A stretch of 64,000 bases of DNA from Alistipes sp. ZOR0009 (GTDB lineage Bacteria; Bacteroidota; Bacteroidia; Bacteroidales; ZOR0009): positions 141,438-205,437 of the forward strand of contig NZ_JTLD01000119.1 in NCBI RefSeq assembly GCF_000798815.1, read 5' to 3'. Positions within the stretch are counted from its first letter, which is position 1, and every line of letters starts with the position of its first letter. Below are positions 59,101 to 63,042 of this stretch, piece by piece. The notes under the pieces are model-generated. The model was not told the DNA's origin and searched no databases. It saw nothing but the letters and a program-made list of their open reading frames with translations. Made by a program: the position numbers and the translations under genes.

Positions 59101-60150
59101 ATGAAGCTTTCTCAGTACAAATTTGATTTACCGGCTGAATTGATAGCCAAATTTCCAACCCCAAATCGCGACGAATCGAGGTTGATGGTGCTAAATAGAA
59201 AAGAAAAAACTATTGAGCATAAGGTTTTTAAGGATATTATCAACTATTTTGATGATGGTGATGTGATGGTATTCAATAACACCAAGGTTTTTCCTGCTCG
59301 TTTATACGGCAATAAAGAAAAAACGGGTGCTCAAATTGAGGTGTTTTTGCTTCGCGAGTTAAATCGAGAGCAGCGTCTTTGGGATGTTTTAGTTGATCCA
59401 GCACGTAAAATTCGTATTGGAAACAAGCTTTATTTTGGAGATGATGACTTGTTGGTTGCCGAGGTGATTGATAATACAACGTCCAGAGGTCGAACTCTTC
59501 GTTTCCTTTTTGATGGAAACTATGAGGAGTTTAAGGACGCCCTTTATAAGATGGGTGAAACTCCGCTACCAAAGTGGGTTCGTAAAGAGGTGGTTCCAGA
59601 AGATGCAGAACGCTACCAAACGATCTTTGCAAAGCACGAAGGAGCTGTTGCTGCTCCAACTGCAGGGTTGCATTTCAGCCGCGAGCTGTTGAAGAGAATG
59701 GAGATTAAAGGTTTAGATTTTGCTGAAATTACCCTCCATGTGGGATTGGGGAATTTTAGAACTGTTGATGTAGAGGATCTGACTAAGCATAAGATGGATT
59801 CAGAGCAGATTATAATACCAGAGGATGCTGCTCAAATTGTAAATGCTGCAAAGGATAATAAAAAGAATGTTTGTGCTGTAGGAACTACAGTGTTACGAAC
59901 ATTGGAGAGTTCTGTGGCTACAACAGGGCATTTGAAGCCCTACAGCGGGTGGACTAATAAGTTTATTTTCCCTCCTTATGATTTCTCGGTGCCAACAAGC
60001 ATGATTACGAACTTTCATCTTCCCTTGTCTACATTGTTGATGATGGTTTCTGCTTTTGCTGGATATGATTTTCTTTTTGATGCCTATGAGGAAGCATTGA
60101 AGGAAAAATATCGTTTTGGAACTTACGGCGATGCAATGCTTATATTGTAA
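59101..60150 (+). CDS. queA: S-adenosylmethionine:tRNA ribosyltransferase-isomerase
   Basis: This 349-aa enzyme makes epoxyqueuosine in tRNAs with GUN anticodons by transferring ribose from S-adenosylmethionine. The N-terminus [19 protein letters not shown] and the motifs [14 protein letters not shown] near residue 184 and [21 protein letters not shown] near 301 are diagnostic. The length is normal. It is the last gene of the cluster and is followed by a strong hairpin. The adjacent tRNA-Asn (GUU anticodon) is a natural substrate class for QueA. Confidence 0.95.
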
Positions 60151-60163
60151 ACACAGTTAGAAC

Positions 60164-60206
60164 TATACAAACGAAGGGCTGCAATTTGCAGCCCTTCGTT
60201 TGTATA
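60164..60206 (+). terminator. Terminator after queA
   Basis: A perfect 20-bp inverted repeat (TATACAAACGAAGGGCTGCA and its complement) has a three-base loop, ATT. It ends the ftsX-queA unit. Confidence 0.8.
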
Positions 60207-60244
60207 AAAAATCTGGTGTTTGAAGAAAAAGTTGCTCTAGGGGC

Positions 60245-60275
60245 TTGCAGGATTAAAATAGAGGGGTTATATTTG
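60245..60275 (+). promoter_or_regulatory. Promoter of the first tRNA-Asn
   Basis: TTG (60245-60247) and TATATTTG (60268-60275) are separated by 20 bases, matching the Bacteroidetes -33/-7 consensus. They lie 36 bases before the tRNA. Confidence 0.8.
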
Positions 60276-60310
60276 CACCGCGTTTGAGGGAAACCTTAGG
60301 CGAAAAACCT

Positions 60311-60384
60311 TCCTCAATAGCTCAGTCGGTTAGAGCACCTGACTGTTAATCAGGGGGTCCTAGGTTCAAGTCCTAGTTGAGGAG
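60311..60384 (+). tRNA. tRNA-Asn (GUU), first copy
   Basis: This is a 74-nt cloverleaf. The acceptor TCCTCAA pairs with TTGAGGA, the discriminator is G, the anticodon stem CCTGA/TCAGG encloses CTGTTAA with anticodon GTT, and the T loop GTTCAAG is normal. CCA is not encoded. It is identical to the second copy at 61746-61819, which faces the opposite way. Confidence 0.97.
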
Positions 60385-60388
60385 CAAA

Positions 60389-60415
60389 AGCCCGAACGAA
60401 AGTTCGGGCTTTTTT
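60389..60415 (+). terminator. Terminator of the first tRNA-Asn
   Basis: AGCCCGAAC-GAAA-GTTCGGGCT is a nine-pair stem with a GAAA tetraloop, followed by T residues. It lies five bases past the tRNA. Confidence 0.92.
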
Positions 60416-60487
60416 GTTTTCCTTCTTTAGAAGAATGAATTCGTGCGATTTTTTCTTACTATTGCTTGAAATAATAAATTTTGAGTC

Positions 60488-61714
60488 GTGAGAAAAATAT
60501 TGTTACTACTATTCGGCTTTTTGTCTATAGCCAAACTTGCAGATGCCTGTACCACATTTATAGTGTCTGGAAAGTATACTTCCGATGGACGCCCTCTCTT
60601 GTTTAAGCAGCGTGATACCGATAACTTGGAGAATGCGTTGGCTTACTTCAGGGACGGAAAGTACAGTTATTGCGGGATTGTTAACTCGAATAAGGATGCA
60701 TCTCGGATGGTTTGGGGCGGTTATAATACAGTTGGGTTTGCTATAATAAATTCTGCTGCCTATAATAACAATGTTGGTGACTTCTCGAAAGAGAAGGATC
60801 AGGAGGGCGTTGTTATGAAAAAGGCATTGATGCAATGTCGGACTGTAGATGATTTTGAACTTTTGCTGAAAACGTTGCCAAAACCCTTGGGTGTCGACGC
60901 CAATTTTGGGGTGATCGATGCCGCTGGGAATGGGGCTTATTTTGAGACCGGCAACTATACCTATAGGAAGGTTGATGTGAATGACCCTATGGTAGCTCCT
61001 CATGGCTTTTTAATCCGAACAAATTATTCTTACGGAGGACCTCTAGAGGAAGGGTATGGCTTTATTCGGTATAATACGGCAAATGACGCCTTGATGGGAA
61101 TGTCTGCTGAAGGCGATTTTAGCGTAGAGAGAGTATTAAAGGATGTTTCTAGGAGTTTATCCCATTCGCTTACAAAAACGAATCTGTGGAATGCCGTTCC
61201 AAAGAGCGCGAATGGCGCTGATTTTCGCTTTTTTATTGACTATATAGCACGTTATTCAACTTCCTCTGCTATGTTGGTGGTTGGGCTAAAGAACGGCGAA
61301 AATCCAGATCGTATGATGATGTGGACTGTTCTTGGTTTTCCTTTTACAACAGTCGCTATTCCGACGTGGAATGCAGGGGGAGACTCTTACCCGAATTTCA
61401 TGAAGCCTCAACTGGATAGTGTTGCTCCTATTTGTAGCGTAGGCTTGCAGATGAAGTCTAAGTGCTATCCTTATAAAAGGAGAGAGGGTGGCAGCTATGT
61501 AAACCTTGCTGCGATTATAAATCAAGATAATTCGGGCTTTTTGCAACGAATTTTGCCGATTGAAAGCGAGGTTGTTCGGCGTGCTGGTTTGGTTAGTGCT
61601 TCTTCTGATGCGGAATTTAAGCGTCAAGTTGTAATTTTTAACCAGTGGGTGGAGGGTTTTGTTGCAGATAAATATACGGAGCAGTTTCACCTAGATTTAA
61701 AAAGTAGGCCATAA
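60488..61714 (+). CDS. Ntn-hydrolase family protein, choloylglycine hydrolase/C45-like
   Basis: This 408-aa protein has a signal peptide that ends ADA before Cys21. The mature chain would start CTTFIVSGKYTSDGRPLLF, the N-terminal Cys nucleophile layout of the choloylglycine hydrolase/penicillin V acylase and acyltransferase C45 superfamily. Other landmarks are KQRDTDN near 38-44, WGGYNTVGFAIINSAAYNN near 76-94 and NFGVIDAAGNGAYFETG near 138-154. It would cleave an amide bond outside the cytoplasm; the substrate is unknown. The start is a GTG at 60488. Its stop codon overlaps the first base of the right inverted-repeat arm, so the gene exactly fills the space between two inward-facing tRNA-Asn units. 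Confidence 0.75.
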   Translation: MRKILLLLFGFLSIAKLADACTTFIVSGKYTSDGRPLLFKQRDTDNLENALAYFRDGKYSYCGIVNSNKDASRMVWGGYNTVGFAIINSAAYNNNVGDFSKEKDQEGVVMKKALMQCRTVDDFELLLKTLPKPLGVDANFGVIDAAGNGAYFETGNYTYRKVDVNDPMVAPHGFLIRTNYSYGGPLEEGYGFIRYNTANDALMGMSAEGDFSVERVLKDVSRSLSHSLTKTNLWNAVPKSANGADFRFFIDYIARYSTSSAMLVVGLKNGENPDRMMMWTVLGFPFTTVAIPTWNAGGDSYPNFMKPQLDSVAPICSVGLQMKSKCYPYKRREGGSYVNLAAIINQDNSGFLQRILPIESEVVRRAGLVSASSDAEFKRQVVIFNQWVEGFVADKYTEQFHLDLKSRP

Positions 61715-61719
61715 AAAAA

Positions 61720-61740
61720 GCCCGAACGAAAGTTCGGGCT
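61720..61740. terminator. Shared terminator of second tRNA-Asn and Ntn-hydrolase gene
   Basis: It has the same GAAA-loop hairpin as the first copy. It is flanked by A-run and T-run on both sides, so it ends the tRNA on the minus strand and the hydrolase transcript on the plus strand. Confidence 0.9.
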
Positions 61741-61745
61741 TTTTG

Positions 61746-61819
61746 CTCCTCAACTAGGACTTGAACCTAGGACCCCCTGATTAACAGTCAGGTGCTCTAA
61801 CCGACTGAGCTATTGAGGA
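61746..61819 (-). tRNA. tRNA-Asn (GUU), second copy
   Basis: It has the same 74-nt sequence as the copy at 60311-60384, on the opposite strand, with anticodon GTT and discriminator G. It is transcribed toward the first copy and ends 31 bases past the hydrolase stop. Confidence 0.97.
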
Positions 61820-61854
61820 AGGTTTTTTGCCTGAGGTTTCCCTCAAATGCGGTG

Positions 61855-61885
61855 CAAATATAACCCCTCTATTTTAATCCTGCAA
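61855..61885 (-). promoter_or_regulatory. Promoter of the second tRNA-Asn
   Basis: On the minus strand TTG (61883-61885) and TATATTTG (61855-61862) are 20 bases apart, as in the first copy. Confidence 0.8.
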
Positions 61886-62014
61886 GCCTTTTTTTAATAA
61901 AACGTCATTGTACAAATTATAAAAACTTATAATCTGAATAGATGGGGCTGTCGGTCAGGTTGTTATTTCTGTGGTAAAATAAGGTGATGTTCGTTATTAT
62001 TTGGGTAAAGTAGA

Positions 62015-62058: not shown

Positions 62059-63042
62059 ATGGCATCAGTTTTAGGACTAGGAAATGCGCTAGTAGACATA
62101 CTGGCAGGGGTACCCAATGATGATTTTCTACACCATTTTGATCTTCCGAAGGGTAGCATGCAGCTAATCGATGAGAATACCGCACATAAGATTACAGGTC
62201 ATTTAAAATCGTTTGAATTGCGCAAGGCTCCTGGTGGTTCTGCCGCGAATACTATAAGTGGGCTATCTAAGCTTGCGGTGGATACTGGCTTTATCGGAAA
62301 GATCGGGGATGACGAAATCGGTAAATTCTTCAAAGAAGACATGATTCGTAGCGGTATCAAACCGATGCTTTCGGTAGGAAGAGCCCCATCTGGAAGAGCG
62401 CTAGTTTTTGTTACTCCTGATTCTGAGCGCACATTTGCAACCTACCTTGGTGCTGCTGTCGAGTTGGTTCCAGAGGAATTGGCAGAAACTGATTTTAAGG
62501 GCTATTCCTATTTCCATATCGAAGGGTATATGGTTCAAAATCACGATTTGGTTCGACAAGCTGTGAAAATTGCCAAACGACATGGTTTAAAAATATCGTT
62601 AGACCTAGCCAGCTACAATGTTGTTGAGCAAAATATGGAGTTTTTGGATGAGATCCTTCGCGACTATGTTGATATTGTTTTTGCGAATCAAGATGAAGCA
62701 AAGGCGTTTACGGGGCTTGATCCAGAAGGAGCTCTTTCGGAGTTGGCGGGACTGTGTGAAATTGCAGTCGTTAAAGTTGGCCGTAAAGGTTCTTACATCA
62801 AAAAGGGGATGGAAGTTCATAAAATTGGCATAATTGACGCAATACCGTTGGATAAAACTGGAGCTGGAGACTTGTACGCGTCTGGATTTATTTATGGGCT
62901 AATCAATAAGTATCCGCTCAATATTTGTGGAGAACTCGGATCCATTCTTTCTGGAAAAGTGATTGAGGTGGTAGGGCCTAAGATGGAGGATCAGGTATGG
63001 GATACAATTAAAGAAATGATAGCTGATGTTCTAAATCGATAG
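62059..63042 (+). CDS. PfkB family carbohydrate/nucleoside kinase (adenosine kinase-like)
   Basis: This 327-aa cytoplasmic kinase has PfkB signatures: APGGSAANTISGLSKL near residues 55-70, GFIGKIGDDEIGKFF near 76-90 and the catalytic DKTGAGDLYASGFIYG near 263-278, with the Asp of GAGD as base. The start GLGNALVDILAGVP is typical of the adenosine kinase subgroup. It probably phosphorylates a nucleoside or sugar; the exact substrate is not settled. The aminopeptidase gene follows after 72 bases. Confidence 0.88.
   Translation: MASVLGLGNALVDILAGVPNDDFLHHFDLPKGSMQLIDENTAHKITGHLKSFELRKAPGGSAANTISGLSKLAVDTGFIGKIGDDEIGKFFKEDMIRSGIKPMLSVGRAPSGRALVFVTPDSERTFATYLGAAVELVPEELAETDFKGYSYFHIEGYMVQNHDLVRQAVKIAKRHGLKISLDLASYNVVEQNMEFLDEILRDYVDIVFANQDEAKAFTGLDPEGALSELAGLCEIAVVKVGRKGSYIKKGMEVHKIGIIDAIPLDKTGAGDLYASGFIYGLINKYPLNICGELGSILSGKVIEVVGPKMEDQVWDTIKEMIADVLNR

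Follow-up and report, generated by a model that had tools for sequence, protein, structure and literature searches.

Inversions whose breakpoints lie in oppositely oriented tRNA genes have been reported in Thermococcus, and the portion of that study on which we draw attributes them to an integrase (PMC5495485). Among Bacteroidetes-type promoters, the consensus given in the part of a second source used here is TAnnTTTG, with TTTG at −33 (PMC7366714). Judged by titles and abstract openings, the papers retrieved in literature searches describe no convergent tRNA cassette around a gene.

Here, we describe such a cassette in the draft genome of Alistipes sp. ZOR0009 (4.4 Mb, 125 contigs). The window, that is, the whole stretch of DNA analyzed, comprises 64,000 nucleotides of contig 119. 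The locus appears to have arisen by ordinary local rearrangement and later homogenization of its sequences and does not look like a gene switch.

Organization of the two tRNA-Asn units

The left arm of the inverted repeat spans positions 60242 to 60415 on the + strand and consists of a TTGC box (60245-60248), the sequence TATATTTG (60268-60275), a tRNA-Asn gene (60311-60385), and then a terminator. The right arm (61714-61888, − strand) has TTGC at 61882-61885, TATATTTG at 61855-61862, and tRNA-Asn at 61745-61819, likewise followed by a terminator. ARAGORN calls both genes, on the + and − strands, respectively, as tRNA-Asn(GTT), with the tRNA fold and the GTT anticodon present in both copies. 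The two tRNA sequences are identical, and the arms share 66 of 69 bases from the −33 region to the tRNA. Aligned in inverted orientation over 174 and 175 bases, the arms show three substitutions and, past the tRNA, a 1-base indel, and they also diverge in the 4-base loop of the terminator; with the loop included, the difference amounts to 7 bases and 1 indel. An earlier note on this DNA had described a repeat of this length with about three substitutions and one indel, which holds for everything outside the loop, and had placed its beginning at the −33 box, in agreement with a start three bases 5' of TTGC. Each predicted promoter contains an exact TAnnTTTG box (TATATTTG) and a TTGC box, the latter near, but not equal to, the TTTG of the consensus as given in the consulted part of PMC7366714. 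Each arm thereby has the predicted makeup of a complete Bacteroidetes-type unit, with promoter, tRNA-Asn gene, and terminator.

The inverted repeat is real and does not reflect chance. None of 100 shuffles of the window contained a match to a longer hairpin pattern, even with up to three mismatches permitted. A similarity search of the draft assembly with an arm as the query returned five matches, namely, the two arms, the right hairpin read again, a tRNA-Met gene (L003), and a short hit without a tRNA (L005); beyond the two arms, this search detected no tRNA-Asn in the draft genome.

The terminator hairpins lie at 60386-60414 (+ strand) and 61716-61744 and form a 29-base direct repeat. Both have the same stem, a predicted folding energy of −19.5 kcal/mol, and a GAAA loop on the + strand, so the terminator loop does not follow the inversion. 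Read in this direction, GAAA holds for the hydrolase transcript as well as the left unit but not for the right tRNA, whose own transcript has UUUC. The earlier description of each arm as a complete unit thus stands for the promoter, the tRNA-Asn, and the terminator, but the GAAA loop that it assigned to the right tRNA does not. The exact hairpin pattern, GCCCGAACNNNNGTTCGGGC, occurs in the assembly at these two sites only, which rules it out as a widespread genomic repeat. The hydrolase stop codon and the right arm share one base, 61714, the last of the former and the first of the latter, a contact that had been noticed previously. The right hairpin therefore also follows the gene: it lies directly 3' of the stop codon (−20.9 kcal/mol in the hydrolase sense) and is positioned to serve the right tRNA (−) as well as the hydrolase (+). 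A separate perfect 21-base inverted repeat with a 1-base spacer follows queA (60164-60206) and is likely to act as a bidirectional terminator of that gene.

Comparison with sister genomes

We compared the locus across three genomes of the family, the window's and two sisters of the same genus (G001 and G002). It is anchored on the left by queA (59101-60150, + strand; Pfam Queuosine_synth, E value of 1.6e-134) and on the right by a PfkB-family carbohydrate kinase gene (62059-63042, + strand; Pfam PfkB, E value of 2.3e-40), which are 94% and 84 to 85% identical, respectively, to the genes at the same places in G001 and G002. Both sisters have the order queA, tRNA-Asn, tRNA-Asn, PfkB kinase; both tRNAs point to queA, and the tandem genes are separated by spacer only, with no hydrolase between them. 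The tRNA-Asn of the right arm has the orientation seen in the sisters. For the sake of clarity, we refer to the kinase-side unit as t1 and to the queA-side unit as t2. The tandem pair is differently built in the two sisters: the spacer measures 62 bases in G001 (L052 3618-3829), with no evident hairpin, and 148 bases in G002 (L051 3777-4074), where promoter boxes and a hairpin are present for each copy. The G001 spacer contains TAAATTTG.

The earlier note had envisaged relatives with a single tRNA-Asn and no hydrolase. Neither sister has the hydrolase here, but a single tRNA-Asn at the locus occurs in none of the three family genomes. The same note had set against its own reading an outcome in which every relative carries the same arrangement, in a single orientation and with diverged arms; the relatives instead differ from the window.

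We also carried out an order-wide tRNA query of 148 genomes, 96 of which, including the window's, had a match at an E value of 1e-17 or better. In 22 other genomes, tRNA-Asn matches share a contig at a distance of under 10 kb, and in all 22 they are on the same strand, a tally made at this E value, which weaker copies would escape. ARAGORN confirmed seven codirectional pairs in the loci examined (six of these genomes and G002). Given codirectional copies in these 22 genomes and tandem copies in the sisters, the convergent arrangement is most likely the derived state, and its geometry appears unusual.

Probable sequence homogenization and the origin of the left unit

The promoter-leader stretches of the two G002 units agree at 42 of 63 bases, compared to 66 of 69 in the window. 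The earlier proposal of a recent duplication or gene conversion is supported to the extent that the homogenization appears recent, and on a plain reading, gene conversion or unequal exchange homogenized the arms after the species split. The terminator stem of G002 t1 resembles both window stems, and that of G002 t2 does not. At the three substituted sites, the right arm has the base of the sisters' t1, and G002 t2 shares that base at two of them. Of 21 sites that differ between t1 and t2 of G002, the right arm follows t1 at 11 and t2 at 8 and departs from both at 2; the corresponding figures for the left arm are 10, 8, and 3. Replacing G002 t1 with G001 t1 leaves 20 sites, with respective counts of 13, 6, and 1 in the right arm and 12, 6, and 2 in the left arm. 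This split of the informative sites between t1 and t2 indicates that the donor of the homogenization was mixed. The second tRNA of G001 was left out of the arm comparisons, since the first tRNA falls within its upstream stretch and throws its row out of alignment.

The outer flank of the left arm (60226-60241, + strand) lies outside the repeat and matches the flank upstream of G002 t2 at 14 of 16 bases. In register with the TTGC box, none of 1,363 other TTGC sites scores as high; for the right flank against the same G002 t2 flank, 673 of 1,363 do, which is unremarkable. This pool was drawn from six sequences, of which the window and L054 overlap, and some sites are counted twice. Disregarding the register, the match is of moderate strength: its score was reached by 4 of 500 plain shuffles (64-base target) and by 17 of 1,000 dinucleotide shuffles (whole spacer), and it is absent from the results of 36 comparisons at a cut of 20 per 1,000 dinucleotide shuffles. 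A pattern joining flank and promoter, composed after the 14/16 match had been seen, finds one site in G000, one in G002, and none in G001 or the controls. Since the left-arm flank matches that of G002 t2, the most likely ancestor of the left unit is the queA-side copy, which would have turned along with part of the flank upstream of it.

The segment at 60440-60464 (+ strand) may be left over from the intergenic DNA that lay between queA and the tRNA in the ancestor, still in the original orientation. Its score against the corresponding sister stretch was reached by 4 (G001) and 16 (G002) of 1,000 dinucleotide shuffles, and the only other matches listed among the 36 comparisons are two expected ones before the kinase gene, at 0 of 1,000 each. 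The identification as a remnant is suggestive only. A simple in-place inversion would have left it on the other side of the left tRNA, and its original orientation would fit better with an inverted copy plus loss of the tandem copy or with two overlapping inversions.

The hydrolase gene between the arms

The 1.3-kb interval between the arms holds a 408-codon gene (60488-61714, + strand) for a putative C45/AAT-like Ntn hydrolase, with a GTG start, a hydrophobic leader, and then Cys21. This cysteine is invariant in all 31 rows of the alignment, which, like the tree, comprises the window protein and 30 of the 33 extracted relatives; L045, L048, and L073, with longer translations, are excluded from both, and L041, L043, L047, and L049, which have an internal stop or are fragments, were never among the extracted relatives. 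Upon putative cleavage of the leader, Cys21 could become the N-terminal nucleophile.

The structure model of the protein (pLDDT of 90.6) has Ntn hydrolases as its best PDB matches (best E value of 1.2e-9; TM score by query of 0.56), and the nearest solved folds are C69 dipeptidase, NAAA, acid ceramidase, isopenicillin N acyltransferase, and penicillin V acylase. We take these solved enzymes to share the Ntn fold, which the window protein is predicted to adopt as well. By sequence, no solved relative was found for it at an E value of 1, and a profile search of solved structures returned only three carbon monoxide dehydrogenase chains (E values of 0.84 to 0.9). The protein resembles C45/AAT-like Ntn hydrolases (NF040521, PF03417) in its conserved cysteine after a leader and its predicted fold. 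However, it scores 38 bits against NCBIfam NF040521 (C45 proenzyme), below the curated cutoff of 85, and has no Pfam match of its own at an E value of 0.1, a threshold that 22 of the 31 proteins in the alignment pass for Pfam AAT.

The family is patchy, with relatives in 77 of 393 sampled genomes of the order, including the window's; one named relative is from a Bacteroidales bin. No relative was found in G001. The G002 copy resides on another contig (L053 4012-5265), about 1.3 kb from a gene that, by sequence, is argininosuccinate synthase-like, and is 42% identical to the window hydrolase, compared to 76 to 94% for five neighboring genes. The tree groups the window hydrolase with bin.736 and the sequences of three other genomes (support, 100/99) and separates it from the G002 copy. 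Its position on another branch than the sister's copy suggests that the hydrolase was acquired or differentially kept, and it would be either a newcomer or an old copy that was differentially retained.

No tRNA was found near the hydrolase at any of the 33 relatives' loci scanned, most with at most 1.5 kb on each side, which rules out the hydrolase as a habitual tRNA neighbor; a search of genome contigs found one related hydrolase locus, also without a tRNA. The GC3 of the gene is 0.409 and does not deviate from that of 36 window open reading frames (mean, 0.443; standard deviation, 0.114), so it gives no compositional sign of a recent foreign origin. In a promoter scan covering 60415-60500, an imperfect −7 box at 60475 was the only match. 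Transcription of the hydrolase may begin within the interval or occur by read-through from the left tRNA unit.

Evolutionary origin of the convergent arrangement

We consider it probable that a tandem tRNA-Asn pair was rearranged into a convergent one with the hydrolase between and that the units were homogenized afterward. Both sisters already have the tandem pair, so an existing pair would have been rearranged in the window lineage. In the ancestral state, t1 would have stood beside the kinase gene and t2 beside queA, as in both sisters. The queA-side unit would then have turned round together with part of its upstream flank, either by in-place inversion or by an inverted copy and loss of the tandem copy, with the kinase-side copy keeping its orientation. 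The C45/AAT-like hydrolase would have become seated between the units, the hairpin of the right tRNA serving as its terminator, and gene conversion or unequal exchange would have homogenized the units from the −33 box to the terminator. The order of these events, the mechanism of the turn, the conversion, and the transcription are what we infer, using arms from a draft assembly and only two sister genomes. The mixed donor, the remnant on the wrong side, the uninverted loop, and the moderate flank match count against this account.

The uninverted loop would be explained by a variant that overlaps with this rearrangement and differs in mechanism, in which fold-back copying at the terminator hairpin gave an inverted duplication, followed by loss of the tandem copy and then by entry of the hydrolase. 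Had the converging units first shared a central terminator, its duplication upon entry of the gene would give two loops with GAAA in one direction, as seen, and the uniqueness of the hairpin and the possible remnant between the left terminator and the hydrolase also speak for this variant. It would, however, require further template switches to place the t2 flank outside the repeat at the left arm, and no intermediate was found among the genomes examined; we regard it as possible but doubtful. Far less probable is the insertion scar raised by the earlier note, in which a hydrolase-bearing element targeted tRNA-Asn and duplicated the whole unit. The absence of the hydrolase from this locus in both sisters and the patchiness of its family agree with an insertion, but a second tRNA made in this way is disfavored by the tandem pair already present without a hydrolase in G001 and G002, and neither the tRNA-less loci of the relatives nor the GC3 of the gene points to such an element.

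The earlier note had also pointed out that the geometry allows inversion by homologous recombination, and this is upheld: arms of 174 and 175 bases flank the hydrolase segment in inverted orientation, and inversion of the gene between them is possible. Exchange between the arms would turn the hydrolase yet leave all three units intact. Both arms are inward-facing, terminated units, so the flipped state would be equivalent and the effect of inversion small; by inspection of the layout, no promoter or coding context would change. Phase-variable expression of the hydrolase is disfavored by this symmetric and terminated layout. An active cassette, in which the hydrolase is flipped by RecA-dependent recombination of the 175-base arms and occurs in both orientations side by side, is permitted by the arm geometry, and a past turn of the middle segment is one path to the remnant at 60440-60464. 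We nevertheless judge it improbable: the six neighboring genes scanned are of housekeeping types, none a recombinase, and both tRNA units terminate before the gene in mirror symmetry, so a turn should hardly alter expression. Equally improbable is an elaborated form, a live flip cassette whose central segment has turned at least once, with palindromic terminators guiding a fold-back duplication and the captured gene serving as a spacer that stabilizes a long and otherwise unstable palindrome of tRNA units; the misplaced remnant and the uninverted loop would be the traces of that past turn.

Comparison with described systems

Under the rearrangement of an existing tandem pair, the locus presumably comprises two ordinary tRNA-Asn genes, their units working as usual, and an ordinary gene. 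It offers a small, traceable case of a tandem tRNA pair that has become convergent and of tRNA transcription units that have been kept alike over their full length, from promoter to terminator. It also calls for caution, as an inverted repeat around a gene need not be a phase switch, and the synteny of the sisters gives a plainer account. The tandem pairs of G001 and G002 share with the window the same tRNA and the same location between queA and the PfkB kinase gene, but the window's pair converges and has a protein gene between its members. Unlike in the Thermococcus inversions, as far as the part of that report used here describes them (PMC5495485), no integrase is present among the genes scanned and no inverted form was observed in the window. 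The likeness lies in oppositely oriented tRNA genes as inversion partners, in large chromosomal inversions in Thermococcus and around a 1.3-kb interval of a bacterium in the window.
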